A DNA stretch of 38,038 bases, taken from the NCBI GenBank assembly GCA_030700105.1, contig JAUYKG010000046.1, positions 1 through 38,038 of the forward strand, in the 5' to 3' direction. Position numbers and translations under genes: made by a program. Origin of the DNA: Candidatus Veblenbacteria bacterium. Its GTDB lineage: Bacteria; Patescibacteriota; Patescibacteriia; Veblenbacterales; UBA10138. The stretch's first letter is position 1, and every line of letters starts with the position of its first letter. Positions 20,343 to 37,306 of the stretch are shown piece after piece. The notes beneath the pieces are model-generated. The model had not been told where the DNA came from and made no database searches. It saw only the letters and a program-made list of their open reading frames with translations.

Positions 20343-20882
20343 TTAGGTTTTAACTCCGCAGCTCTTTAAAACCTGTATGAATTGTTCTGCAACCTGGTGG
20401 GGAGTAGCAGAAGAAGTATCAATAATAGGCTCACCAAAGCTCTCCGCCTGTTTACGTAAAAATTTCAGCCAATTTTTCATGTCTTCGCTAGCAAGCCAAG
20501 CCTGTTGCCTCCCGTCAACTAACCTTTTTACCATTATCTCCTGCCCGCAATCTATCAAAACTATCTTATATTTCTTAAAGCTCTGTATTGCAAAACCGGC
20601 TTTTATAAATTCAAGGTTTGCCTGGCCATCCATAATTATTACTTCTTTGTCCAAAAAAGCCGTAACCATTTTATTTATCCACTCGTAGGTCTTAGTGCGT
20701 TGCCAATTTTCTGCTGAACCATATTCTTTAATCATTTCCTCTGTAGAAGGAACATCCATGGAATCGAACTTTAAAAATTCCCAATTTTTTCTATCAGAAA
20801 ATTTTAGTTTCAAGTTATCTAGCAGGGTAGTCTTACCCACGCCCGAGGCACCAGTTATAAAAATTATGAGCTTGCTGTTCAT
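20343..20882 (-). CDS. P-loop nucleotide/nucleoside kinase-like ATPase (AAA_33-type)
   Basis: IIFITGASGVGKTTLLDNL Walker A; LIDCGQEIMVKRL. Confidence 0.75.
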   Translation of the reverse strand: MNSKLIIFITGASGVGKTTLLDNLKLKFSDRKNWEFLKFDSMDVPSTEEMIKEYGSAENWQRTKTYEWINKMVTAFLDKEVIIMDGQANLEFIKAGFAIQSFKKYKIVLIDCGQEIMVKRLVDGRQQAWLASEDMKNWLKFLRKQAESFGEPIIDTSSATPHQVAEQFIQVLKSCGVKT

Positions 20883-20911
20883 AAATAGTTTTCAGGCCCT
20901 GAAGTCGGGGC

Positions 20912-21238
20912 TCATTTTACTTCTTCCCACTCCCCTGTTTCAGATTTGTATACCACAATTTTATCTCCACCCACTGCCATTTCACCCTGGTAATACACAC
21001 GGTAAATCGCAGATTCTGATGCCTCGTTATGGTTTGGAAACCTTCCTTTCCTCATGTACTCATATTGGATAATTTCACCCTGCTCTTCACTTGCGCCTTT
21101 TACTTCAAGCAAATAGAGCCCTTGTTCGTCAAATAATTCACGTACGAGTACGGGGTTTTCTACAAAACGAGAAATGACTTCTAACACTTCTTCTTTTGTT
21201 AGTATCCGTTCCGGGCCCTTTTCAATTCCGTTTTCCAT
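20912..21238 (-). CDS. Hypothetical protein (108 aa)
   Basis: Intact ORF; no family recognised. Confidence 0.6.
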   Translation of the reverse strand: MENGIEKGPERILTKEEVLEVISRFVENPVLVRELFDEQGLYLLEVKGASEEQGEIIQYEYMRKGRFPNHNEASESAIYRVYYQGEMAVGGDKIVVYKSETGEWEEVK

Positions 21239-21647: not shown

Positions 21648-22265
21648 CTACAACAAAAACTGACCGGCGGCAAGGTAATAGAGCCAAGCCATTATCGGCT
21701 GCAGCCAATCGAATAGGAACAGAAGGAAGAAAATAAGAATAATAAACCCAAAGCGCTGCAGCCAAACTTTAAAGCTGTACAAACTGTCCGGCAGGAAGGA
21801 GAACAGCACGTGGCTGCCATCCAACGGCGGAATGGGCACCAGGTTAAACACCGCCAAGAGAACGTTAGCGTACACCACAATGGAAAGGAACACGGTAAAG
21901 GTAGAGGGATCCATAAACCGCACGAACAGCCCCAGGCCAAAAGCCAGCACCAGGTTCGCCGCTGGTCCGGCTAGGCCCACCACTGCCGGCCCCCAGCGCC
22001 GCAGGCGCAAAGCCAGGGGGTTAAAAGGCACGGGCTTGGCGTAAGCGAACAGGAAACTACCGCTGGTTAAAAAGAACAGCAAAAAAGGCAGCAACAGCGT
22101 GCCCCAAATGTCTATGTGCGGAATGGGGTTTATTGTCAGCCGCCCAGCCAGGCGCGGGGTAGGGTCCCCCAGCTTATCGGCCGCGAACCCATGCGCCCAT
22201 TCGTGCAGAATGGCCGAAGGGATAATGACCAGAATAAAGAACAAAAGTTGTATGGTGTTTTCCAT
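21648..22265 (-). CDS. Site-2 protease (M50) family intramembrane zinc metalloprotease
   Basis: ILHEWAHGFAADKLGDPTPRLAGRLTINPIPHID; NLVPIPPLDGSHVLF. Confidence 0.95.
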   Translation of the reverse strand: MENTIQLLFFILVIIPSAILHEWAHGFAADKLGDPTPRLAGRLTINPIPHIDIWGTLLLPFLLFFLTSGSFLFAYAKPVPFNPLALRLRRWGPAVVGLAGPAANLVLAFGLGLFVRFMDPSTFTVFLSIVVYANVLLAVFNLVPIPPLDGSHVLFSFLPDSLYSFKVWLQRFGFIILIFFLLFLFDWLQPIMAWLYYLAAGQFLL

Positions 22266-23185: not shown

Positions 23186-23261
23186 TAGATTTACCTCCTT
23201 TATTTATTGTTTTTTGTTTTGCCACGAGCTTACAAGCTCCCTTCCAAAAAGTCAAGTCAAA

Positions 23262-23295
23262 CAAAAAAGTGCGGAAGGTATTGGATTCCTTTCGC
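23262..23295 (-). terminator. Rho-independent terminator of first T9SS-CTD gene
   Basis: AGTGCGGAAGG-TATTGGATT-CCTTTCGCACT; minus strand continues TTTTTTG. Confidence 0.8.
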
Positions 23296-23317
23296 ACTAA
23301 ATTTCGGTAGGGTGGTG

Positions 23318-25171
23318 CTACTTGGTGAGCACCATTTTGTTTGTTTTTGTGAACGGTCCAGCTTGGAGCTGGTAAAAGTAGGTTCCACTGGGGAGGTTTT
23401 GGCCGATGAATTCAGCCGTGTAGCTACCGGGCGGCAGCTCCTCGTTGACCAGTATGGCCACCTCTTGTCCGACTAGGTCGTAAACAACCAATCGAACATG
23501 GGTGGTATTGGGTATCTGGTAACTAATTACTGTTACCGGATTGAATGGGTTTGGATAGTTCTGGCTAAGCGAGAACTCTAGGGGAGCACCAACAGTAACA
23601 GCGAAAGAATCGCTGTATTCGTATGTGCCATCAAAGTCCACTTGCTTCAAACGGTAGAGGTAAATGCCTGATAGTGCACTATTGTCCACAAAACTATAGT
23701 AATGAGGAACGGGAGTAGTCCCATGGCCAGGCACGAATGCCACTGTGGTATAGGCTTGGCCTACAGCTTGTCTCTCTATCTCGAAACCACTGTTATTCAG
23801 CTCAGTTGCCGTTATCCAGGAAAGATATACTTTCCCTTCTATTGCAACTGCGCTAAACGTAGTTAGCTCAACTGGCACTGGCACTTCAACGTGCAATACC
23901 CAGCTTAGAGTATCGCTACCTCCCCTGCCGTCTTCCACCATGACAGAAATTGGGTGAAAACCGGTATCTGCCATTGTTGGCGTGCCTACGAAATGGGCAG
24001 TGAGGATAGAGCTCTCAAGCTCTATCAGGAACGACAGAAATCCTGGTTTTTCCAATAAGGTAAAGGCTAGGGTGTCGTTATCAACATCCTCAGCCATTAC
24101 CACAACATCGTAAGGCTCTCCTACGGTTGCTGTGGTTGGGGGCAATGGCCCAACAAAGTTGGGGCTATTGTTCTGGGTCTGGTAATCATAATAGTAGACA
24201 TGGAACTGCCCCACGAACCACATGTGGCGCTCGTCTATAAAGCATGCACGCAGAAAGTCTGAGTCGTACCCAATACTACTAGGCTGGAAGGTCTCTCCTG
24301 CGTCGGTGGTCTTCATAATCTGGTTCTCGGAACCAAGCCCTACCGCAACGTATGCAACTTGATCATTGATGACTATGGCATCACGAGGCAGGTATGAAGG
24401 TTTTGGTGTGTACGGCAACCATGAAGCACCTCCATCAGTAGTTCGATAACCACCATATTCCCATGTGACTCCATTAGACCATTCAAGATAACCGGTCTGA
24501 CCCGACGGACTGAAGGAAAGGAAATTGTGGTTCACCGAGGTGTCGTTTACGATAGCGTGGTCAATCCACGTATTGCCGCCGTCAGTCGTTTTTATAAGTG
24601 TTCCCTTAAGGCCAGCGATCCAAGCTACAGAATCGTTCACTACAGCAATACTTCGTAGTCCCCCATATTGCGGAAACTGAATCAGTTGCCATGAAACCCC
24701 CTTATCCGTTGAATAGAGCAATAGGCCGTATTGATCCCACGAGTTCATCCAGTAACCACCTGCAACTACAAGTTTGGAACCGAAGTGTTTCATATCCCAC
24801 CAGCGGCTATTGCCTGCGGGATGTGATATGGTGTTCCAGCTATTTCCATTGGTAGTTGTACTAGCCAATATACCAGGACCGCTGCCAAAACCGCTTGAAC
24901 CCGCGACCCATACGGTTTCGCCTTCTATGTGAATAGTTACGTAATCGTAGATACCCGAAGGCAAACTTGCTACATCTGCCCAATCGCGTCCACCATTTGT
25001 GGATTTCACTATTTTATTGTTTCCTACAGCCCATCCATTAAGAGTGTCACTAAAAATGATATCATTAAAACCCGATGGGGGGCCGGGGAGCTCAACCCTA
25101 AACCACTGCGCGCTTACCGTTGAAACGGCGAGCGCAATTATAACTACTACGAACATTGCAAGCCGTTTCAT
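23318..25171 (-). CDS. Secreted protein: signal peptide, YCF48/BNR-like beta-propeller, Ig/FN3-like domains, T9SS type A C-terminal sorting domain
   Basis: MKRLAMFVVVIIALAVSTVSA|QW; STNGGRDW / TTDGGNTW / TTDGGASW repeats; VELTTFSAVAIEGKVYLSWITATELNNSGFEIERQ; FSLSQNYPNPFNPVTVISYQIP...GTYFYQLQAGPFTKTNKMVLTK. Confidence 0.9.
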   Translation of the reverse strand: MKRLAMFVVVIIALAVSTVSAQWFRVELPGPPSGFNDIIFSDTLNGWAVGNNKIVKSTNGGRDWADVASLPSGIYDYVTIHIEGETVWVAGSSGFGSGPGILASTTTNGNSWNTISHPAGNSRWWDMKHFGSKLVVAGGYWMNSWDQYGLLLYSTDKGVSWQLIQFPQYGGLRSIAVVNDSVAWIAGLKGTLIKTTDGGNTWIDHAIVNDTSVNHNFLSFSPSGQTGYLEWSNGVTWEYGGYRTTDGGASWLPYTPKPSYLPRDAIVINDQVAYVAVGLGSENQIMKTTDAGETFQPSSIGYDSDFLRACFIDERHMWFVGQFHVYYYDYQTQNNSPNFVGPLPPTTATVGEPYDVVVMAEDVDNDTLAFTLLEKPGFLSFLIELESSILTAHFVGTPTMADTGFHPISVMVEDGRGGSDTLSWVLHVEVPVPVELTTFSAVAIEGKVYLSWITATELNNSGFEIERQAVGQAYTTVAFVPGHGTTPVPHYYSFVDNSALSGIYLYRLKQVDFDGTYEYSDSFAVTVGAPLEFSLSQNYPNPFNPVTVISYQIPNTTHVRLVVYDLVGQEVAILVNEELPPGSYTAEFIGQNLPSGTYFYQLQAGPFTKTNKMVLTK

Positions 25172-25334
25172 GGCTGCCTCCTTTTGTTTTTATTTTAGAA
25201 TCCGCCCAAGGCGGACGAGTTATGAATTAAGAATCACGAATTAAGGCTCCGCGGTTCCAATTATTTATTAACGAACTAAACGTTAAGTTCCTTCTACCTT
25301 CATTAATTACATTAAAAAAAGAACTTAACAAGTT

Positions 25335-25362
25335 AGTATACAACAAAAATGATAGCTGTCAA
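25335..25362 (-). promoter_or_regulatory. Promoter for first T9SS-CTD gene
   Basis: Minus strand TTGACA-N16-TATACT. Confidence 0.75.
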
Positions 25363-25400
25363 AAGGCTACCGTCTAACTACTACAAAATAGGCTAAGTCC

Positions 25401-25646
25401 TTACGCTATCTTGAGCTGCTGCTTTACTTCAGCCAGTTCTTTGGTATGACGTTCAACCTCCTCCTCAATCCGGCGCACCCACTCAACAGTAAAGATACGC
25501 TCTTGGTCCAAGCGGCGTAAAATGCTCATCATCTGATCATACCCTGCCAAGTATTCATCACGCCTTAACGTAGCATCAAGCTTGCGCTCGATGTTAGCTA
25601 AACGTTCGCCGTGCTCCACTAAAACTTTTGTAGCTTTTTCTTCCAT
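25401..25646 (-). CDS. Small coiled-coil protein (81 aa)
   Basis: Heptad-rich MEEKATKVLVEHGERLANIERKLDATLRRDEYLAGYDQMMSILRRLDQ...VEWVRRIEEEVERHTKELAEVKQQL. Confidence 0.65.
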   Translation of the reverse strand: MEEKATKVLVEHGERLANIERKLDATLRRDEYLAGYDQMMSILRRLDQERIFTVEWVRRIEEEVERHTKELAEVKQQLKIA

Positions 25647-25714
25647 AGTAAGATTTAAATACCTAGGTTTCTAGAGTAATAATACTACCAATAAAAATCA
25701 CGTCAAGTCAAATA

Positions 25715-25749
25715 AAAAAGTGCGGAAGGTATTGGGTTCCTCTCGCACT
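25715..25749 (-). terminator. Rho-independent terminator of second T9SS-CTD gene (paralogous to that at 23262)
   Basis: AAGTGCGGAAGGTATTGGGTTCCTCTCGCACT; minus strand continues TTTTTTATTTG. Confidence 0.75.
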
Positions 25750-25791
25750 AAAATTCGGTAGGATCCGCCCAAGGCGGACAAGTTTCGGTTC

Positions 25792-27642
25792 TCATTTAAG
25801 GAGAACCATTTTGTTTGTTTTTGTATAGTCGCCTGCTTGGAGGCGGTAAAAGTAGGTTCCAGAAGGAAGTGTTGAAGCGTCGAATGAGGCCTCATAGACT
25901 CCTGGTGTTTGGTACTCATTAATAAGTACCTCTACTTCCTGCCCTAGCAGGTTATAAACGGTGAGTTGCACCTCACTAGCGTGAGGTATCTCGTAACGAA
26001 TGGTCGTTACCGGATTGAATGGGTTGGGATAGTTCTGAGATAGTGAGAACTCTAGGGGAGCACCTACAGTGATTTCAATGGTATCGGAATATTCATAAGT
26101 TCCGTCGTAGTCTATCTGTTTGAGCCGATAGAGATATGTACCTGTGGTTACCCAGTCGTCTGTAAAGTTGTAATGACTGATAGTTGCAGTGGTTCCACGA
26201 CCAGGTACATAACCTATGGTCTCATAGACTCCGCCGAGCTTCTGGCGTTCAACTTGGAAACCATAGTTATTGGTTTCGGTGGCTGTTGTCCAGGAAAGGT
26301 GTACTTTCCCTTCGATAGCAACCGCGCTGAACGTGGTGAACTCAACTGGTGTCGGGTCAGCAACTATGACATGAAGTGTCCAAGATAGAGTATCGTAACC
26401 ACCGTGGCCATCACTCACGCTAGCAACAATTTCATGGTAGCCAGTATCGTTGATACTCGGCACCCCTTGAACAATGGCAGTCTGTATGATGATATCCGGG
26501 GTGAGCATCACTAAGAACGGCGGCTTTTGCAGCAGGAAGAACGACAAGGTGTCGTCTTCTGGGTCTTCAGCATATAGCATTACGCTATACACCGAATCAA
26601 CATAGGCAACCGTGTCGGGGAATGGAGGAATGAAATTTGGGTTTCCATTCTCTGGCTGGTAGTCGTAATAGTAGACATTAAGGGGATCTATAAACCAAAT
26701 ATGACGAGCGTCAATAACCCACGATGCTAAGAAACTTGACCAGCTGCCAAACATTGGACTGCTACTTTGAAACGTAACGCCGCGATCAGTACTCATAAGT
26801 ATCTCATTGTCTGGATCTGGTCCGTACATGCCCACATACACCGTGTCGTTGCCAACTGCAGCCGAGGCGCCAACATAATAACCAGGCTTTGGATTCCAAG
26901 GGACCCAGGTGTCTCCGCCGTCTGTGGTTCGGAGTGGTACATTCGTGAATTCTCGCCAGCCGTTAAGATATCCGACTTGTCCATCTTTGGAAAATGTTAC
27001 TTGTGTATAGTCTACGGTTGTATCAATTGACCTATCAACCCAAGAAAATCCTCCATTAGTGGTTTTTAATATTGCCCCGTGCGCACCCACGATCCAAGCA
27101 ACGGAATCATTCACCACAGCAATAGACTTGAGTGTACCGCACTGTGGGAATTCTGTGAGTTGCCAGGAAACACCATTATCACTGGAACGCATGAGCAAGC
27201 CATCACCAAGACCGGGCTGCGTTGGAGACGTACCGACAACAATGATGTTCTGTCCGAATTGAGCGACATCGTACCACCAGCTATTAGTTGCTGGGTGATC
27301 AATCACCTGCCAACTCGCGCCGCGGTCAGATGAGTAAAGCACAATACCAGCTCCTGGAGTGCCTTGATTCGAACCAACAACCCACACATTATTCTCTTTG
27401 GCCAGTACTCCCCAATACTGGTACCAAGTTACCGGCAGGCCTACCTGTTGCCAGTTCCTTCCGCCGTCAGTGGACTTTTTCACAAGATTATCCCATGCTC
27501 CCGCAACCCATCCTTCGGAAGTATCGCGGAAAGAAATGTCTTGGGCATCGATGGTACCCATATCAACCCTGAACCACTGTGCGCTTACCGTTGAAACGGC
27601 GAGCGCAATCATGACTACTACGAACATTGCAAGCCGTTTCAT
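25792..27642 (-). CDS. Secreted paralog: signal peptide, YCF48/BNR-like beta-propeller, Ig/FN3-like domains, T9SS type A C-terminal sorting domain
   Basis: MKRLAMFVVVMIALAVSTVSA|QW; TDGGRNWQ, TNGGFSWVD, TTDGGDTWVPW; FSLSQNYPNPFNPVTTIRYEIP...GTYFYRLQAGDYTKTNKMVLLK. Confidence 0.9.
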   Translation of the reverse strand: MKRLAMFVVVMIALAVSTVSAQWFRVDMGTIDAQDISFRDTSEGWVAGAWDNLVKKSTDGGRNWQQVGLPVTWYQYWGVLAKENNVWVVGSNQGTPGAGIVLYSSDRGASWQVIDHPATNSWWYDVAQFGQNIIVVGTSPTQPGLGDGLLMRSSDNGVSWQLTEFPQCGTLKSIAVVNDSVAWIVGAHGAILKTTNGGFSWVDRSIDTTVDYTQVTFSKDGQVGYLNGWREFTNVPLRTTDGGDTWVPWNPKPGYYVGASAAVGNDTVYVGMYGPDPDNEILMSTDRGVTFQSSSPMFGSWSSFLASWVIDARHIWFIDPLNVYYYDYQPENGNPNFIPPFPDTVAYVDSVYSVMLYAEDPEDDTLSFFLLQKPPFLVMLTPDIIIQTAIVQGVPSINDTGYHEIVASVSDGHGGYDTLSWTLHVIVADPTPVEFTTFSAVAIEGKVHLSWTTATETNNYGFQVERQKLGGVYETIGYVPGRGTTATISHYNFTDDWVTTGTYLYRLKQIDYDGTYEYSDTIEITVGAPLEFSLSQNYPNPFNPVTTIRYEIPHASEVQLTVYNLLGQEVEVLINEYQTPGVYEASFDASTLPSGTYFYRLQAGDYTKTNKMVLLK

Positions 27643-27803
27643 GGCCGCCTCCTTTTTTGTTTTAGAATCCGCCCAAGGCGGACAAGTTATGAATTAAGAA
27701 TCAGGAATAAATCCAAGATTCTTAGTTATTTGTTAATTAACTTTTTGAATTAGGTGCTAAACCTATTACTAGTATGTACACAATAAATCAGGTTTAACAA
27801 GTT

Positions 27804-27912: not shown

Positions 27913-30837
27913 CTACTGCTTTATAATAACCGGCGGTTGGTTACTGATAATTAGAGTCGCATACCCAGAACCTGAAATCCCAGCATTATCACGCAGGATA
28001 GTCGACAAATCAACCGCTATATTCGCGTTTTGATTTCCATTATTCGGAACAGTAAGAATCAATGTATTACCACTGGGACTACATGTTCCTCCTGGTATAA
28101 GTAAACTCAAATTTACTAGATTACCAGAATTACGCCTCCCCCTCACATTCGCGCACGTTAGTACAGATAAATTACAGCCGGACCCGGAATCTACACAGGT
28201 AATTCTGAACGTGGGGTAGTTAGAGTTGGTGCTACATGAGTTGGTTGAAGTAGGAAGTGCGCATGTAGTGGTCCAATTCCTTTTAGGTGGTTGGTTAGTG
28301 ATCACCTGTAACTGGTGCGTGGGAGCGGTGGTGTCGGTGGCCACTGTGCATGAACCGCTGCCGGACTGGCCCGAAACATTGCCGACATTATCACGAGCCA
28401 GCACGCGGTAGCTACGCGTGCCGTTGCTCTTGCCGCTGTAGCTGGTGGAGTTACCGGGTGCTATTACCGTCCTGGAATACACCCCGTTCTCGTACACGTC
28501 GTACGAGGCTAGGCCCGAGGTGGCGTCGGTTGAGGCGGTCCAGGAAACCGTATAACTCCCGTTCGGGCTAGGGTTGGGGCTGCAACTGGGCGTGCCAGGG
28601 ACGGTGGGAGATGTAGTATCCACAATAATGCTGTCGGAGTAACAAGAGCTTGGGTTGCCGGCCCAATCACTGAACCTCACCGAAGCTGATCTGGTGCCGT
28701 CGCCGGAGGGTAGGGTCCTGTTTATCGATGAAGCATAAGGGTTGACGGTGCTCCCAGCGGAACAAATGCCATCGGTATACGTAGTCATGACGATGCAACC
28801 GCTGCCGGAATCGCTGCAGGTTAAATTCAACGTTACGGTGCTGGAACCGGTGTAGGTGGCGCCTTTGTTGATGGAGATGGTACCCGTGGGCGGGGCGGTA
28901 TCCACGATAATGCTGTCGGCGATACAGGCGCCCTGGTTGCCGGCCCCATCCCTAAACCGCACCGAAGCTGATCTGGGGCCGTTGCCGGACGATAGGGTGA
29001 TGACTTTCGATGAACCATAAGCGGTGGTGTTGCCCCCAGCGAAACAAGAGCCATCGGTGTACGTAGTCACCTGGCTGCAGCCGCTGTCGGAATCGCTGCA
29101 GGTTAAATTCAACGTTACGGTGCCGGAAGTGGTGTAGGTGGCGCCGTTGTTGATGGAGATGGTACCTGTGGGCGGGGCGGTATCCACGATAATGCTGTCG
29201 GCGATACAGGCGCCCTGGTAGCCGGCGCCGTCGATGAACCGCACCGAAGCGTACCTGGTACCGTTGCCAGAGGGGCTAAGGGGGAAAAGGCTGACGGTGG
29301 AAGAGTAAGCCACATTACTAAGGTAGGGAAAGGAAGAACACGTGTTGTTATTGTTCCACACGTGCATCCGGCTGCAACCGCTGCCGGAATCGTTACAGGT
29401 TAAATTCAATGTTACGTTGCTGGAAGTGGTGTAAGCGGCGCCGTTGTTAATGGAGATGGTGCCGGCGGGAAGGGTGGTATCCAAAATAATGCTGTCGGAG
29501 GAACAAGAGCCCGAGAAGCCAGCACCATCTATAAACCTAACGCTAACATTCTTTGCGCCGTCGGGCGTGGCCGGCGACAGGGGGAAGAGGGTGCGTGTTG
29601 GGGAGTAAACGACGTTGTTAAGGTACGGTGAGCCAGAGCAGCTATTGCTGTTGTTCCAAATGTGCATGCGGCTGCAGCCGGTGCCGGAATCGCTGCAAGG
29701 CAGGTTCAACGTTACGGTGCTGGAAGTGGTGTAGGTAGCGCCGTTGTTGATTGAGACGCTGCCGGCGGGAACGCCGGTATCCAAAATAATACTGTCGGAG
29801 TAACAGATGCTCTGGTTGAGGGCGCCGTCGGTGAACCTGACGCTAACATTCTTTATGCCGTCGGGCGTGGCCGGCGACAGGGGTAAACCGGCGCGTGTTG
29901 GGGAGTAAACGACGTTGTTATCGTACGCCGCGCCGGAGCAGCTATTGCTGTTGTTCCAAATGTGCATGCGGCTGCAACCGGTGCCGGAATCGCTGCAAGG
30001 CAGGCTCAACGTTACGCCGATAAAGGCGGTCCAGGCGGCGCCGCTGTTGATGGAGACGCTGCCGGTGGGTGCGGCGGTGTCGATGGGCGCTACTGTGCAC
30101 GAACCGCTGCCGGATTGGCCCGAAACATTGCCGACGTTATCACGAGCCAGCACACGGTAACTGCGCGTGCCGTTAGTCTTGCCGCTGTAGCTCGTGCTGG
30201 TACTCGGGGCTGTTACTGTTTTGGAATACGAACCGTTCTCGTACACGTCGTACGAGGCTAGGCCCGAGAGTGCGTCTGTTGAGGCACCCCAGGAAACCGC
30301 ATATCTCCCATCTGTGCTGGGGTTGGGGCTGCAACTGGGCGTGCCAGGGACAGTGGGGGCCGCGGCATCAGTTACAACATTCAAAACCTGTTCATCGGGC
30401 CAGACAGGAGACCAAGGTGAATGCGCAGTGCCTTCTTGCTCTTGGACGCGCCAATTGTATCTGGCTGCGGAAAACGACATAGTATACCACGCATTAGTTA
30501 TAAACTTACCACTAACATAACTCCCTCCTGCGTTATAAGGATTAGTCCACACCTCCAGTTCATAAAGGTCACAAGGCGGTGGAACGCCGCCTGTAGGTGG
30601 CATATAACAATGTTCAATCCAACCTAATGTAACCGTTTTTGTGCCACCAGAGGCTACATATAGGGTCGTATTGTCAAGCGGGTAAAGATCGCTGGGCGGC
30701 AAGACCGCGGCGCGGGCTTCGGGTGCGCTACTGGCAAACCACACCAGGGCAATTATAAAACCAAAAACAGCTGTTACACCCAACCGAATAGCTGTTCCAT
30801 GTACTGGTAATTTTTCCGAGGCTTGGTGATGCGTCAT
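27913..30837 (-). CDS. Large exported protein with two FN3-like domains bracketing five tandem Ig-like repeats (ORF track start 30870 is TTG; ATG at 30837 preferred)
   Basis: N-terminal hydrophobic segment; five repeats of type DTxxPTGTISINNGATYTTSSTVTLNLTCSDSGSGC...SVRFxDGAGNxxxCxxDSIIV; two VPGTPSCSPNPS...GSGSCTV domains. Confidence 0.88.
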   Translation of the reverse strand: MTHHQASEKLPVHGTAIRLGVTAVFGFIIALVWFASSAPEARAAVLPPSDLYPLDNTTLYVASGGTKTVTLGWIEHCYMPPTGGVPPPCDLYELEVWTNPYNAGGSYVSGKFITNAWYTMSFSAARYNWRVQEQEGTAHSPWSPVWPDEQVLNVVTDAAAPTVPGTPSCSPNPSTDGRYAVSWGASTDALSGLASYDVYENGSYSKTVTAPSTSTSYSGKTNGTRSYRVLARDNVGNVSGQSGSGSCTVAPIDTAAPTGSVSINSGAAWTAFIGVTLSLPCSDSGTGCSRMHIWNNSNSCSGAAYDNNVVYSPTRAGLPLSPATPDGIKNVSVRFTDGALNQSICYSDSIILDTGVPAGSVSINNGATYTTSSTVTLNLPCSDSGTGCSRMHIWNNSNSCSGSPYLNNVVYSPTRTLFPLSPATPDGAKNVSVRFIDGAGFSGSCSSDSIILDTTLPAGTISINNGAAYTTSSNVTLNLTCNDSGSGCSRMHVWNNNNTCSSFPYLSNVAYSSTVSLFPLSPSGNGTRYASVRFIDGAGYQGACIADSIIVDTAPPTGTISINNGATYTTSGTVTLNLTCSDSDSGCSQVTTYTDGSCFAGGNTTAYGSSKVITLSSGNGPRSASVRFRDGAGNQGACIADSIIVDTAPPTGTISINKGATYTGSSTVTLNLTCSDSGSGCIVMTTYTDGICSAGSTVNPYASSINRTLPSGDGTRSASVRFSDWAGNPSSCYSDSIIVDTTSPTVPGTPSCSPNPSPNGSYTVSWTASTDATSGLASYDVYENGVYSRTVIAPGNSTSYSGKSNGTRSYRVLARDNVGNVSGQSGSGSCTVATDTTAPTHQLQVITNQPPKRNWTTTCALPTSTNSCSTNSNYPTFRITCVDSGSGCNLSVLTCANVRGRRNSGNLVNLSLLIPGGTCSPSGNTLILTVPNNGNQNANIAVDLSTILRDNAGISGSGYATLIISNQPPVIIKQ
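28610..30080 (-). repeat. Five tandem coding repeats of about 280-300 bp within the 985-aa gene
   Basis: Near-identical blocks starting around 28613, 28906, 29187, 29487 and 29785 (gtatccacgataatgctgtcgg...). Confidence 0.85.
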
Positions 30838-30886
30838 AAAAAGGCTTTGGCTTATGCAACTTTTATTCAAAAAATTGCCTAACGCT

Positions 30887-31025: not shown

Positions 31026-31538
31026 ATGGCAGACCCCATACCCAGCCCGAGCGGCGCCACGCACACCCCCGCCAAAGCCGCAGTGGTAGCAATTATAATC
31101 GCGGTACTGGCCGTGGCGGCGTACTTTATCTTCCGCCCCGGCGGCTGGACACCGCCAGCGGGTAACCAGCCGACCCCGCCCGCCGAACAAACCAACCAGG
31201 AGCCAACGCCCTCCCCCACGCCCAACGAAGTGTACTCGTACGTGGGTGAAGTGCAGGCGGTGGGTAACGGACAAATTACCGTGCTAGCCAAAAAAGACCT
31301 TAACCTGCTGGAAGAGGACGCCACGCTCACCGTGAAAGCGGACGCCAACACGCAGGTCATCCGCCGCACCATTCCGCGCGAGCTGCCCGAGGACGGCGGT
31401 GCTGGCCTGTTCTCGCAAGAGACCATCGCCCTGTCGGACGTTCAGGTAGGCAACCAGGTAACCGTGGTATCGGCTACCAACATTCGCGGCGTGAGCGAAT
31501 TCACCGCCTCGAGCGTGGAAGTGCTGAACATAAAGTAA
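31026..31538 (+). CDS. Hypothetical membrane-anchored exported protein (170 aa) with Pro-rich linker
   Basis: TM VVAIIIAVLAVAAYFIF then PGGWTPPAGNQPTPPAEQTNQEPTPSPTPNE, followed by a beta-rich domain. Confidence 0.7.
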   Translation: MADPIPSPSGATHTPAKAAVVAIIIAVLAVAAYFIFRPGGWTPPAGNQPTPPAEQTNQEPTPSPTPNEVYSYVGEVQAVGNGQITVLAKKDLNLLEEDATLTVKADANTQVIRRTIPRELPEDGGAGLFSQETIALSDVQVGNQVTVVSATNIRGVSEFTASSVEVLNIK

Positions 31539-31574
31539 TAACCAGTAAGAGTTAAGAGCTACGAACAAGTTTTG

Positions 31575-31613
31575 CCCCACCCCTTCTTTGGAAGGGGTGG
31601 GGTTTTAGTTTTC
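31575..31613 (+). terminator. Rho-independent terminator
   Basis: CCCCACCCCTTC-TTTG-GAAGGGGTGGGG-TTTTAGTTTT, perfect 12-bp stem. Confidence 0.92.
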
Positions 31614-31709
31614 AGTCCACCCCAACCCATAGTTCAACCTTAGCAACAACGAGCCACTGATACTTAAGTAGTAGAGGTACCTCCGCTGCTAATAGCTGCC
31701 CAGCCGCCC

Positions 31710-31755
31710 TCCTCCCTTATGGTACTATTCTATAGAATAGTACCATAAGGGAGGA
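31710..31755. repeat. Perfect 46-bp zero-loop palindrome
   Basis: TCCTCCCTTATGGTACTATTCTA|TAGAATAGTACCATAAGGGAGGA, verified base by base. Confidence 0.97.
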
Positions 31756-31909
31756 ACCACAATAATCCCTAACCCGGCCAGTGCACGTAACACCAAACAA
31801 CTCATTCAATAGCTGGTAATCAATATTATGACCGAGCGGATATAATATTAATTTAAAGCCGCAGCGAGCGATTACCACTCTCAATTATTCAGGGGGTTTA
31901 TTTGGGGTA

Positions 31910-31938
31910 TTGATATGGCGGCTAGATTTTGCTACAAT
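31910..31938 (+). promoter_or_regulatory. Promoter for lemA
   Basis: TTGATA-N17-TACAAT with TGC extended -10, about 38 bp before ATG. Confidence 0.75.
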
Positions 31939-31976
31939 CTGTATGCTTTTGCATTAATTACTTAAGACAATATCAT

Positions 31977-32534
31977 ATGACTACTCTAACCTGGATTATC
32001 GTTATTGCGGTGGCGGCCGTGGTACTCTGGCTGGTGGCCACCTACAACCGGCTGGTAAGTTTAAAGAACCGAGCCGCCGAGGGCTGGAGCGATATCGACG
32101 TACAGCTTAAGCGCCGCTACGACCTTATACCGAACCTGGTGCAAGCTGTGAAAGGCTATGCCAAGCACGAGGACGCCGTGTTCACCAAGGTAACCGAGGC
32201 GCGCACGCGCGCTATGGGCGCCCAAGGCGTGGCGGACAAAGGCGCGGCCGAGAATATGCTTACGGGAGCGCTCAAAAGCCTGTTCGCGGTAGCCGAAAGC
32301 TACCCCGACCTTAAGGCGAGCGCCAACTTCCTAAAACTGCAGGACGAACTCTCCGACACCGAGAACAAGGTCCAGGCCGCACGGCGCTTCTACAACAGTA
32401 TGGTGCGCGATCTTAACACGCTCATAGAGACCTTCCCCTCCAATGTGGTAGCGAACCTGTTCAAATTCCAAAAGCGCGAATTCTTTGAGGTAGGGGGCGA
32501 GGCCGAGCGCCAGGCGCCGCAGGTAAATTTTTAG
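31977..32534 (+). CDS. lemA: LemA family protein
   Basis: YNRLVSLKNRAAEGWSDIDVQLKRRYDLIPNLVQAVKGYAKHE; YNSMVRDLNTLIETFPSNVVANLF. Confidence 0.96.
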   Translation: MTTLTWIIVIAVAAVVLWLVATYNRLVSLKNRAAEGWSDIDVQLKRRYDLIPNLVQAVKGYAKHEDAVFTKVTEARTRAMGAQGVADKGAAENMLTGALKSLFAVAESYPDLKASANFLKLQDELSDTENKVQAARRFYNSMVRDLNTLIETFPSNVVANLFKFQKREFFEVGGEAERQAPQVNF

Positions 32535-32580
32535 CACCTAGCCACTGGTTCCTAGCCAATGGCCATTAAGAGCTACAGCC

Positions 32581-32937
32581 ATGAAGTCCTACCGGGAACT
32601 GGAAGTTTGGCAACGGAGCTGCGATTTAGTCCTAGAAATCTATAAACTTACCTCTACCTTCCCTCACACTGAACAATACGGCTTAATAAACCAAATGAGG
32701 AGAGCGGCGATTTCCATACCATCTAACATCGCTGAAGGTTTTAGCAGGCGGACACTAGCCGATAACCATAACTTCGTTCGGATTGCTTTTGCTTCCGGCG
32801 CAGAGCTCGAAACCCAAATATACTTGGCTGAAAAACTCAAACTAGCCCAAACCAAACAATTCAAGGCTGCTCAAGATGCCCTGGAAGTAATTATGAAGAT
32901 GTTAAACAAGCTGGGGCAAAGCCTTACTAGTGGCTAA
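32581..32937 (+). CDS. Four-helix-bundle protein (23S rRNA intervening-sequence/S23 family, PF05635-like)
   Basis: MKSYRELEVWQRSCDLVLEIYKLTSTFPHTEQYGLINQMRRAAISIPSNIAEGFSRR signature. Confidence 0.93.
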   Translation: MKSYRELEVWQRSCDLVLEIYKLTSTFPHTEQYGLINQMRRAAISIPSNIAEGFSRRTLADNHNFVRIAFASGAELETQIYLAEKLKLAQTKQFKAAQDALEVIMKMLNKLGQSLTSG

Positions 32938-32964
32938 CGACCAGGAACTATTGGCTATTATTCT

Positions 32965-33861
32965 ATGTACGATTCCATTGCCGCCAACAAAAGGAAGAGC
33001 TGGCTCTTGGTAGTACTCTTCGTGGTGGTTATCGCGCTCCTTGGGTACGCCTGGGGCGCTTACTCCGGCGATACCTTTGGCGCGCTCTCGGTAGCTGGCG
33101 TGGTGGCTATTGTTATGGCGCTCACGAGCTATTACGGGGGCGCTAAAATTGCGCTCTCACTCTCTGGCGCCTACCAACTAGCGAACCGCGAACAAAATTC
33201 TTACGTTTGGAACCTGGTGGAGAATCTTTGCATCGCGAAGGGTCTACCTATGCCCAAGGTATACCTGATACCCGAACCGGCCATAAACGCTTTCGCCACC
33301 GGCCGCTCGCCTGAACACGCCGCTATCGCCATTACCGAAGGGGCGGTGGCCAAACTGGAGAATGAGGAACTGGAAGGCGTGATAGCGCACGAACTCTCGC
33401 ACATTGCCAACTACGATATCCGCCTGGCCACGCTTGTTATCGTGCTCTTGGGCACGCTTTCCATACTCTCCGACATCTTTCTGCGCTCCACGCACTTTAT
33501 CGGCGGCGGGCGGCGCGGGAGTTCCCGCGGCGGCAACGCCGCCGGAATCATGCTCCTTATTGGCCTGGTGCTAGCGCTGCTCTCGCCCCTCTTGGGCAAG
33601 CTCATCCAGCTCGCTATTTCCCGTCGGCGCGAATTCCTGGCCGACGCCGCGGGCGCGCTCCTTACGCGCTACCCCGAAGGCCTAGCGCGGGCGCTGGAAA
33701 AGATAGAACAGGACAACACACCGCTTAAGCGCGTGTCCGAGGCCACCGCTCACCTCTACCTCGCCTCACCGTTCGGCAGTAAACCGTCACTCTTAGGGCG
33801 GCTGTTTATGACCCACCCCCCTCTGGCTGAACGCGTACAAGCCCTACGCCAAACAACTTAA
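32965..33861 (+). CDS. htpX: M48 family zinc metalloprotease HtpX
   Basis: GVIAHELSHIANYDIRLATL (HExxH); four hydrophobic segments; C-term THPPLAERVQAL. Confidence 0.96.
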   Translation: MYDSIAANKRKSWLLVVLFVVVIALLGYAWGAYSGDTFGALSVAGVVAIVMALTSYYGGAKIALSLSGAYQLANREQNSYVWNLVENLCIAKGLPMPKVYLIPEPAINAFATGRSPEHAAIAITEGAVAKLENEELEGVIAHELSHIANYDIRLATLVIVLLGTLSILSDIFLRSTHFIGGGRRGSSRGGNAAGIMLLIGLVLALLSPLLGKLIQLAISRRREFLADAAGALLTRYPEGLARALEKIEQDNTPLKRVSEATAHLYLASPFGSKPSLLGRLFMTHPPLAERVQALRQTT

Positions 33862-34001
33862 CCAAGTCCCACCTAAGCGAGGTTTAGCGTGTGGTACAAG
33901 CAGCTTAACCTGCCATTTGCTTTTACATTTCGTTCCCATACTATAGGCTTGAATTTTTCCCTCAGCGGTGGCAAAATAAGAAAACCGCTATACTACATAC
34001 T

Positions 34002-36515
34002 ATGCTCGATATATTCTCTAAATTCACCACCCACTACCAAAAAACCCTCACCTTGGCCCGTGCTACCGCGCTAGGCTCGGGCCGACGGCAGTTGGAGGTG
34101 CAAGACGTGCTGGTGGCGCTCTCTTCCCAGCGCGGCAGCTTGTCGGCGGAGATTCTGGATAAACACGGCCTCTCTCCCTTGCGGCTCCACGCCAAGCTAA
34201 GCACCACGCCTATACCAGCAAAGCCCCTCTTAAACGAGGAACCCAATGAGGAGGCACTGCTCGACATACTGACCGACGACCTCTCGCTTGCCGTGAAAAA
34301 ACTAGTGGAGCGCTCGGTGCTAACGGCCTGGCGCTTGCAACACCACTATATCGGCACCGAGCACCTGCTCTACGCGCTCGTAACGAGTGAGGAGGCGGAA
34401 GTGAAGGCGCTCTGGCTTAAGCTGGGCGTGAACTTGCGCGGACTTAAACAGAGCGTGAACTCCCTGCTGAAGAGCACCTCCAAATTCCCTGACATCACCG
34501 AGGCTTTCGCCCCTGGCGATGTGAGGAGCGAGCCGGAACACGACGGCGCCACGCCGGCGCTGGATTTCTTTTGCACCGACCTTACCTCGCAAGACGTGCA
34601 AACCAAGGTGGACCCGGTGATAGGGCGGGAGAAGGAGATTCAACGCCTCATCAATATCCTCGGGCGCCGCACCAAAAACAATCCCCTGCTCTTAGGTGAC
34701 CCGGGCGTGGGCAAAACCGCCATCGTGGAAGGTTTGGCTAAGCGGATTATGGAAAACAAGGTGCCGGAATTTTTACAGGACAAGAAGATTATGGCCCTGG
34801 ACCTCGGGCTGGTGGTGGCGGGTACTATGTACCGCGGCGAGTTCGAGGGTCGGCTTAAGCAAATTCTGGACGAACTTAGGGCACACCCGGAGATTATCCT
34901 TTTTATAGACGAGGTGCACACCATCGTAGGTACGGGCGCCGCGCCGGGGTCGCTCGACCTCGCGAACATCATTAAACCGGCACTGGCTAAAGGCTTAGTG
35001 CGCTGCATTGGCGCCACTACCCAAGAAGAGTACAAAAAATCCATTGAATCCGACGCCGCGCTGGAGCGCCGGTTCCAAGTGGTGCAGGTGGTGGAGCCCA
35101 CGCCCGAGGAAACTGCCGCGGTGCTAAAGGGTATTCGCTCCAACTACGAGAAATTTCACCGGGTGGAAATTACGGACGAGGCTATTGAAGCGGCTATTAG
35201 CCTGTCGGAACGCTACCTGCCGGAAAAATTCCTGCCGGACAAGGCTATTGATCTTATTGACGAGGCTGCCTCGCACGTCCGCACCTCCCAAGCACCGCAG
35301 GGCAAGGCCAAGCCCAGCCGTGAACTGGAAGCCAAGCTCAAGCAGCTGCACGAGGCTAAGGAGTTGGCAGTAACGCAAGAAAATTTTCCGCTCGCCAACG
35401 CTTATAAAGAAGAAGAGGAGAAGGTACGCCTGGAGCTGGAGCGGCTGCGCCAACATGAAACGCCCGCCCCCGCTACCGTGGGCACTATTACACGGGCCGA
35501 CATTGCGCAAGTAGTGGCGCAAATGACTGGCGTGGCGCTTACCGAACTCCTGGCTGAAGAGCGCACCAAGCTGGTGGCTTTGGAAGAAAAGTTAAGTGCC
35601 CGCGTGGTCGGGCAAGAGGAAGCTGTGGCGGCCGTGGCACGCGCCATTAGGCGGGGACGCCTGGGGCTAGGGAACCCCCAGCGCCCCTTGGGCTCGTTCC
35701 TGTTCTTGGGCCCCTCGGGCGTCGGGAAAACCGAACTCGCCAAAATGGTGGCGCAGGTGGTGTTCGAAGACCCGAATGCGCTGATTAGGCTGGATATGTC
35801 GGAATTCTCCGAAGGTTTTAATATTTCCAAACTCATCGGTGCCCCGGCTGGCTACGTAGGTTATAAAGATTCCAACAAGCTCACAGACCTGGTGAAACGC
35901 AAACCTGCCTCGGTGGTGCTGTTCGACGAGGTGGAGAAAGCCCACCCCGACATTTTTAACCTCTTGCTCCAAGTTTTGGACGAGGGCCACCTGGCTGACG
36001 CCGCCGGCAAGCAGGTGAACTTTAAGAACACACTCATCATTATGACCTCTAACCTGGGGCTGCGAGAACTTACCCAGCAGGCCAAGCTTGGCTTTGCGGC
36101 CGATAACGATAAAGGAAAAACCAACTGGCACACCGAGTGGCAGGCCAGCAAGGAACAGCTCATGGCCGAGGTGAAAAAGTTCTTCCGCCCCGAGTTCTTG
36201 AATCGTCTGGACGGCGTGGTGGTATTCAACCCGCTCACCGAGGCACACTTGGGAGAAATAGTTAAACTGCAGGTAGGCGACCTGAACGCGCGACTGAAGG
36301 AACAAAAGCTTGAACTCGCAGTGCGCTTGGGCCGAGGGGCAGCCACCGTAATTGCCCACGCCACTTTCTCTCCCCAAGAAGGAGCACGCAACATCCGCCG
36401 CTACCTCACGGAAAAAGTGGAAGATCCCCTCACCCAACAGCTACTCAAGGGTAAGCTTAAAACACCCGCTCACCTCACCCTCACGGTTAAGGGGGGCCAG
36501 GTAACACTAAAGTAA
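34002..36515 (+). CDS. clpC: ATP-dependent Clp protease ATP-binding subunit (ClpC-like)
   Basis: Clp N domain; Walker [16 protein letters not shown] and [17 protein letters not shown]-like middle segment. Confidence 0.95.
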
Positions 36516-36544
36516 GGGCGAGGGAGTACAGGGTAAGAGCAATT

Positions 36545-37306
36545 ATGCCCAAGTCCTTAACTCTTACGCTTACCCAACCCTCTTACGCTTTACTAGCTGC
36601 GGCCTGGCAGTGGCTGTTGGACGCGCTCTTTCCCCGGCGTTGTGTAGGTTGCCGACGCTGGGGCAGCTGGTGTTGCGCCGCGTGTTTAGCCTCTCTCAGT
36701 TTCCCCCGCCAGCTCCACTGCCCAGGGTGCCAGAATGTTAGTCCGCTGGGCGAGTGGTGCCAGGATTGCGTGGCCGGACAGGCACTCCGGGGCCTGTGGT
36801 GCACGCAGAACTACGCCAACCCTCTGCTGCGCAATATGATCCGAGCCCTGAAATACGAAGGGCTCACCGAACTGGCGGTACCTCTGGGCCGTCTCCTCAG
36901 CGCCACACTCACTACCTACGGGCTACCGCCCGCCTGGCACGAAGTGCCGCGTGAACGCTGGTACCTAACGCCCGTACCATTAGCGCCACGGCGGGAGCGG
37001 CAAAGAAATTTCAACCAAACCGAGCTCCTGGCCCAAGCTGTCAGTACGACTACCAACTTGGCGCTAGCGAGCGTGTTACAACGTGTCCACTCCACTAAGC
37101 CACAGAGCGAACTGGCCCAAGACGAACAGCGACACAGCAACGTACGCGGCGCCTTCGCGCTTCAGAGCGACGCCCAGGTAGCTGGTAATGCTTATATCCT
37201 GGTGGACGACGTGTATACCTCCGGCGCCACTATGGAAGAATGCGCCCGCGTGCTTAGAGCCGCCGGTGCGCGCGAGGTGTGGGGCCTTACTGTGGCCAAG
37301 GGGTAA
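36545..37306 (+). CDS. ComF family protein (phosphoribosyltransferase domain)
   Basis: N-terminal CVGC...CPGC...CQDC cysteines; TPVPLAPRRERQRNFNQTELLAQ; YILVDDVYTSGATMEEC. Confidence 0.94.
   Translation: MPKSLTLTLTQPSYALLAAAWQWLLDALFPRRCVGCRRWGSWCCAACLASLSFPRQLHCPGCQNVSPLGEWCQDCVAGQALRGLWCTQNYANPLLRNMIRALKYEGLTELAVPLGRLLSATLTTYGLPPAWHEVPRERWYLTPVPLAPRRERQRNFNQTELLAQAVSTTTNLALASVLQRVHSTKPQSELAQDEQRHSNVRGAFALQSDAQVAGNAYILVDDVYTSGATMEECARVLRAAGAREVWGLTVAKG

Follow-up and report, generated by a model that had tools for sequence, protein, structure and literature searches.

The C-terminal domain (CTD) by which cargo of the type IX secretion system (T9SS) is sorted has been reviewed as restricted to proteins of Bacteroidota, which with few exceptions track the T9SS machinery (PMC10202324). 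In two of these proteins, PorU and PorZ, the CTD is retained and used for docking (PMC10202324). For Patescibacteria, a monoderm-type envelope has been argued by a published analysis (PMC12102498). We investigated a stretch of 38,038 bases from a Candidatus Veblenbacteria genome (hereafter the window, which is the entire contig C31 of an assembly of 811,473 bases in 47 contigs, 95.7% complete), in which two tandem open reading frames (ORFs) end in a type A sorting domain of this kind. The genome is like those of the Candidate Phyla Radiation (CPR), as the initial annotation of this DNA had supposed: it is small at high completeness, and uS5 and uL15 are adjacent in the ribosomal operon with no uL30 in between, the absence of uL30 being a CPR hallmark. 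Since the domain also occurs in many relatives, as described below, the class presents a real, class-wide exception both to the reported restriction to Bacteroidota and to the reported tracking of T9SS (PMC10202324); no earlier description of a T9SS or CTD in CPR, Patescibacteria or Parcubacteria was found in the open-licence PubMed Central literature.

The two genes and their terminal domains, the latter with boundaries taken from our own hidden Markov model (HMM) of the CTD, are the following:

23318 to 25171, reverse strand: ORF 1, 617 amino acids, with a signal peptide, a BNR/Ycf48-like propeller, an immunoglobulin (Ig)-like domain (He_PIG/Big_9-like), a PVELTTFSA domain similar to fibronectin type III (FN3) and a type A CTD
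23321 to 23575, reverse strand: type A T9SS sorting domain of ORF 1, residues 533-617 (TIGR04183, PF18962)
25792 to 27642, reverse strand: ORF 2, 616 amino acids, tandem paralogue of ORF 1
25795 to 26049, reverse strand: type A T9SS sorting domain of ORF 2, residues 532-616 (TIGR04183)
26050 to 26364, reverse strand: FN3-like PVEFTTFSA domain preceding the CTD of ORF 2 (AlphaFold2 model)

That two paralogous ORFs end in T9SS type A sorting domains had been proposed from the letters of the window, and the profile searches bear this out, with coordinates in agreement and both profiles above their cut-offs in both ORFs: TIGR04183 scores 51.6 bits in ORF 2 and 40.1 bits in ORF 1 (cut-off 23), and PF18962 scores 42.1 and 34.6 bits, respectively (cut-off 27). 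These matches span nearly the whole profile and stop at most three residues from the C-terminus; with our own HMM the domain ends exactly at the C-terminus in both ORFs (0 residues away) and 0-1 residues from it in nearly all class members. ORF 1 and ORF 2 are the only TIGR04183 matches in the whole genome (811 kb, 47 contigs). The type C sorting domain profile gave no match in this genome, the controls of that search being silent as well. The propeller with TDGGxxW repeats and the PVEfTTFSA domain, both seen by the initial annotation, were likewise recovered: the propeller bodies of both ORFs match PSII_BNR/Ycf48 and BNR repeats, and the FN3-like domain and CTD of ORF 2 (190 residues) were modelled by AlphaFold2 as two beta-sandwich domains with a mean predicted local distance difference test (pLDDT) score of 91. 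A Foldseek search with this model retrieved FN3 domains in tandem and, among the top structural matches, PorU, which carries a CTD as well. The PVEFTTFSA domain is common to further loci (L059, L071, L091, L022). At the other end, both proteins start with MKRLAMFVVVxIALAVSTVSAQ, a signal peptide by inspection. The window proteins thus share a propeller body with Ycf48/HCF136 and BNR propellers, but they are multi-domain, predicted to be secreted, and far under the Ycf48 equivalog cut-off.

A search for related loci starting from the window returned Edwardsbacteria and Ignavibacteria matches only, and one T9SS-positive genome of each was taken as control. The machinery was then sought in 54 CTD-positive genomes of the class (our own and 53 others, most of them >90% complete) with profiles for SprA (TIGR04189), PorU (NF033707) and Omp85 (PF01103); these three parts define the scope of the negative result, PorV and GldK-N not having been searched for. 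All three were detected in both controls. SprA was found in none of the 54 class genomes, PorU exceeded its cut-off in none of them and only in the two controls, and Omp85 was missing from 53. Sub-cut-off PorU matches in CPR genomes are confined to the last part of the profile and lie mostly at the CTD matches themselves. The paradox of sorting domains without outer-membrane machinery, pointed out from the window alone, therefore stands; the proposal to look for that machinery in the genome was followed for sprA and porU, neither of which was found in our genome. Completeness is not 100% in every genome, and a T9SS with an outer membrane hidden in the class could be argued on that ground; given absences this consistent in mostly >90% complete genomes, next to strong control signals, we regard it as highly improbable and already contradicted. 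The single Omp85 exception, G066 (L209, L210), probably reflects contamination of the bin: the contigs that bear its Omp85 match and its CTD match are each only about 2.6 kb long.

The CTD trait is class-wide, which the initial annotation had not seen. TIGR04183 matches occur in 57 of 193 relatives (about 30% of the sampled class genomes), whereas an even draw across the phylum gave nine positive genomes out of 381, three of the nine belonging to the class. In 37 genomes the CTD gene lies on a contig of at least 20 kb (a count from the result tables), and the trait was also found in genomes assembled as a single contig (four copies in G136, 946,732 bases; one copy in G173, 1,035,212 bases). 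With the type A cargo of Bacteroidota and other members of the Fibrobacterota-Chlorobiota-Bacteroidota (FCB) group, the CPR proteins share the domain family, the exact C-terminal position, the signal peptide, varied payloads and the conserved columns. They differ in that SprA, PorU and Omp85 were not found in the CPR bearers (the Omp85 of G066 excepted), and in number, positive CPR genomes having 1-7 copies and most Bacteroidota genomes tens of them. Sparse type A CTDs were also observed in other classes of the phylum (G215, G216, G239, G280, G519, G529; L028-L031, L033-L035).

Within its family, the CTD gene has kept its place in the chromosome from a time that predates the divergence of two genera. 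The evidence comes from G006, a genome in six contigs that belongs to the same family but to a different genus, and in which EF-Tu, EF-G, uS7, an M50 peptidase, a CTD propeller gene, an Ig-repeat protein, hyp170, lemA, htpX, clpC and comF follow one another in the same order and orientation as in the window. Identities amount to 87% for EF-Tu, 83% for EF-G, 74% for uS7 and 66% for M50, and on the other side to 56% for hyp170, 71% for lemA, 60% for htpX, 59% for clpC and 50% for comF. The elements of this locus are:

21648 to 22265, reverse strand: M50 peptidase, syntenic anchor
27913 to 30870, reverse strand: Ig-repeat protein without CTD, 985 amino acids, TTG start, adjoining the CTD gene in the window as its relative does in G006
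31026 to 37306, forward strand: hyp170, lemA, htpX, clpC and comF, syntenic anchors (50-71% identical, G006 order kept)
25201 to 25215, reverse strand: palindrome TCCGCCTTGGGCGGA, resembling repetitive extragenic palindromic (REP) elements, with more copies at 25764-25778 and 27668-27682

In the stretches examined of G003, G007 and G005, the surroundings of the CTD genes showed no synteny. A binning or assembly artefact, which the initial annotation had listed among its possibilities, could be suspected from the lower overall GC and the lower GC at third codon positions (GC3) of both window genes (GC3 of 0.46-0.48 vs 0.58-0.76 in most core genes), from CTD matches elsewhere on 2-5 kb contigs, some of which may be contamination, and from the 2.6-kb Omp85 contig of G066. 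For the window locus it is refuted by the synteny with G006; CTD genes also lie inside the 946-kb and 1.04-Mb single-contig genomes, and the palindrome turns up again on another contig of our genome and in all but one of seven relatives from the family, with no copy in the 6.3 Mb of the two control genomes. We consequently rejected this explanation, the probability left to it being negligible.

Judged from substitution patterns, the CTD is kept by purifying selection after its arrival in the class: dN/dS of CTD pairs within the class is 0.09-0.47 where dS could be computed (0.17 for the window pair), although many dS values are saturated and the ratios accordingly rough. The CTD is usually more conserved than the body to which it is attached. 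In the window pair, CTDs are 67% and bodies about 51-53% identical; between the G006 protein and ORF 2 the values are 64% for the CTD and 31% (global alignment) or 26% (BLAST) for the body; and pairs within one genome reach 73% vs 22% (G055) and 72% vs 24% (G125, where the bodies are M23 and CHAP enzymes). CPR and FCB CTDs agree in their per-column conservation (r = 0.93). The last 12 columns of the CTD appeared to be relaxed in CPR, but we made no use of this, as the FCB sample had been picked by best score.

In a tree of 155 CTDs (85 columns, with a small FCB reference set chosen by best score), CPR and FCB domains are interspersed, their labels requiring at least 23 changes compared with 49 when shuffled, and some groups come from the same genome (for example, G020 and G136). 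Because of this interspersion and the low GC3 measured for both window genes, repeated horizontal transfer of the CTD from FCB donors, followed by duplication, seems likely; Bacteroidota have been reported as over-represented among the gene-exchange partners of groundwater Patescibacteria (PMC12455944). Of the four possibilities raised by the initial annotation, which had also proposed such a phylogeny, acquisition from Bacteroidota or Ignavibacteriota is accordingly among the best supported. An 85-column tree is insufficient to date or count the transfers. The same data bear on the main rival to any function of the domain, namely that FCB bacteria supplied entire cargo genes and that the CTD lives on solely as a stable fold at the C-terminus, with no function in itself. 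The FCB-like column pattern would be expected in that case if many acquisitions were fairly recent, and the interspersed tree, the foreign-looking GC3 of the window genes and the existence of M23 relatives without a CTD fit as well. However, two genera have retained the CTD at the same locus, whereas the bodies attached to it are no more than about 26-31% identical, and in the in-genome pairs it is likewise the better conserved part (72-73% vs 22-24%). A legacy without function thus appears doubtful to us, albeit worth serious consideration.

The bodies carrying the domain are diverse. Among 88 class and near-class CTD proteins, 13 contain Peptidase_M23, one CHAP and five C25, and S8, FG-GAP, PKD and dockerin domains were also found. 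Of 79 complete CPR CTD proteins, 75 have an N-terminal hydrophobic signal (by a hydropathy heuristic), two a lipobox and two a marginal transmembrane segment; LPxTG was found in none of the 79. As the tested machinery is absent and there is almost no other anchor, the simplest reading is Sec export with an uncleaved CTD serving as docking module, and we hold it with moderate confidence. Both window genes would encode extracellular proteins exported by Sec across one membrane, in which a fast-changing propeller carries a C-terminal Ig-like domain descended from the type A sorting domain of T9SS cargo. That domain would have entered the class by horizontal transfer from Bacteroidota or FCB relatives, several times, would stay uncleaved on the protein, and would now dock it to the surface of the cell, to the S-layer or to a partner cell. 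PorU and PorZ provide a precedent for an uncleaved CTD as docking module, and PorU is a top structural match of our model; their partners are outer-membrane barrels, whereas in the CPR class Omp85 was not found. Reuse of the CTD as an Ig-fold surface module had been suggested from the window, and it shares the place of best-supported possibility with horizontal acquisition. The comparisons establish the domain, its position and conservation, the age of the locus in the family and the absence of the three machinery parts looked for, the docking itself as well as Sec export, CTD retention and the number and direction of transfers being what we infer from them.

Several points weigh against this reading and should be kept in view. 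The starred branches of the CTD tree force only three label changes, the 85-column tree is poorly resolved, and its FCB references are few and were picked by best score. Purifying selection is equally expected if the CTD is needed for folding alone. The likeness of CTDs within a genome, considered next, is also explicable by several transfers from one donor lineage with mutually similar CTDs.

CTDs on unrelated bodies score 72.5 bits against each other within a genome and 59.3 bits between genomes, and none of 1000 permutations gave a value as high. This likeness speaks for the docking reading. Together with a tag common to such varied payloads (M23, CHAP, C25, S8, propellers, dockerins), it is also what one would expect if a CPR machine or surface receptor not yet recognised were reading the CTD independently of T9SS; yet no candidate receptor was found, and a search of the neighbouring genes yielded one recurrent family, which tracks the hydrolase payload and not the CTD, so that we consider CPR-encoded sorting decidedly unlikely. 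The unrecognised secretion route listed by the initial annotation gained no positive support. Sorting in trans, by which released CTD proteins would be processed by PorU and PorV of a T9SS-positive host or neighbour and end up on that host, could draw on the T9SS recognition positions still conserved in CPR CTDs and on the exchange with Bacteroidota in groundwater (PMC12455944). Known substrates, however, arrive at PorU from inside, via SprA and PorV (PMC10202324), and we hold this explanation to be very unlikely. A wider version of the docking proposal, in which the CTD would be a class-wide, T9SS-independent surface-docking or sorting tag, read by a receptor of the CPR envelope and displaying adhesive propellers and peptidoglycan hydrolases against host cells, with paired membrane-anchored PsbP-like proteins possibly protecting the producer, is put forward tentatively and seems to us rather improbable.

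What has been observed is a sorting domain decoupled from its secretion system, kept under purifying selection without the tested machinery. Annotation as a T9SS sorting domain is, by itself, unsafe evidence of a T9SS. The proteins that bear it are also candidates for surface and lytic factors in the contact of CPR bacteria with their hosts, about which little is known.

Upstream of ten M23 genes, and of the CHAP gene as judged by a BLAST relative, a PsbP-like gene lies on the same strand at a distance of 42-316 bases; its product is membrane-anchored at the N-terminus and has an Asn/Thr-rich linker. Since the same kind of M23/PsbP-like pair exists without a CTD (G051 and G796) and with one (G655), the CTD is an optional module at this locus. 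M23 or CHAP hydrolases, mostly with a CTD, lie just 3' of a PsbP-like gene at L042, L047, L051, L053, L054, L055, L065 and L068, and the same arrangement was seen at L087, L093, L104, L193, L194 and L195, with L193 showing alternating hydrolase/PsbP-like tandem pairs without a CTD. Such pairs are possibly effector-immunity or enzyme-inhibitor pairs of CPR bacteria.

Regarding the surroundings of the two window genes, the contents of the interval between M50 and the CTD gene differ between our genome and G006, and this interval is probably an insertion hot spot. At 20343-21238 the window contains low-GC3 genes (0.36-0.40), an AAA_18 NTPase and a 108-residue ORF, which have no counterpart at the G006 locus; G006 has other genes between M50 and the CTD gene, one of them alaS-like in appearance. 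A further low-GC3 gene at 32581-32937, between lemA and htpX, is by appearance a four-helix bundle (S23-like) and does not occur at that place in G006. The gene of the adjoining Ig-repeat protein (27913-30870) contains repeats of about 300 nucleotides with 60-100% identity.

The tandem pair itself is a mosaic, as seen from its conserved ends and the small gene between:

25092 to 25191, reverse strand: conserved 5' end of ORF 1 (leader and signal peptide), family D6, 93% identical to 27563-27662
27563 to 27662, reverse strand: conserved 5' end of ORF 2, family D6
23251 to 23311, reverse strand: conserved 3' flank of ORF 1, family D7, 93% identical to 25702-25762
25702 to 25762, reverse strand: conserved 3' flank of ORF 2, family D7
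25401 to 25646, reverse strand: ORF of 81 amino acids between both CTD genes, possible coiled coil, no Pfam match over cut-off

The conserved 5' regions extend over 25092-25244 and 27563-27711. With 93% DNA identity in the flanks against the protein identities given above for bodies and CTDs (dS 1.7), the arrangement suggests either an exchange of payloads between conserved ends or a homogenisation of the ends by conversion.

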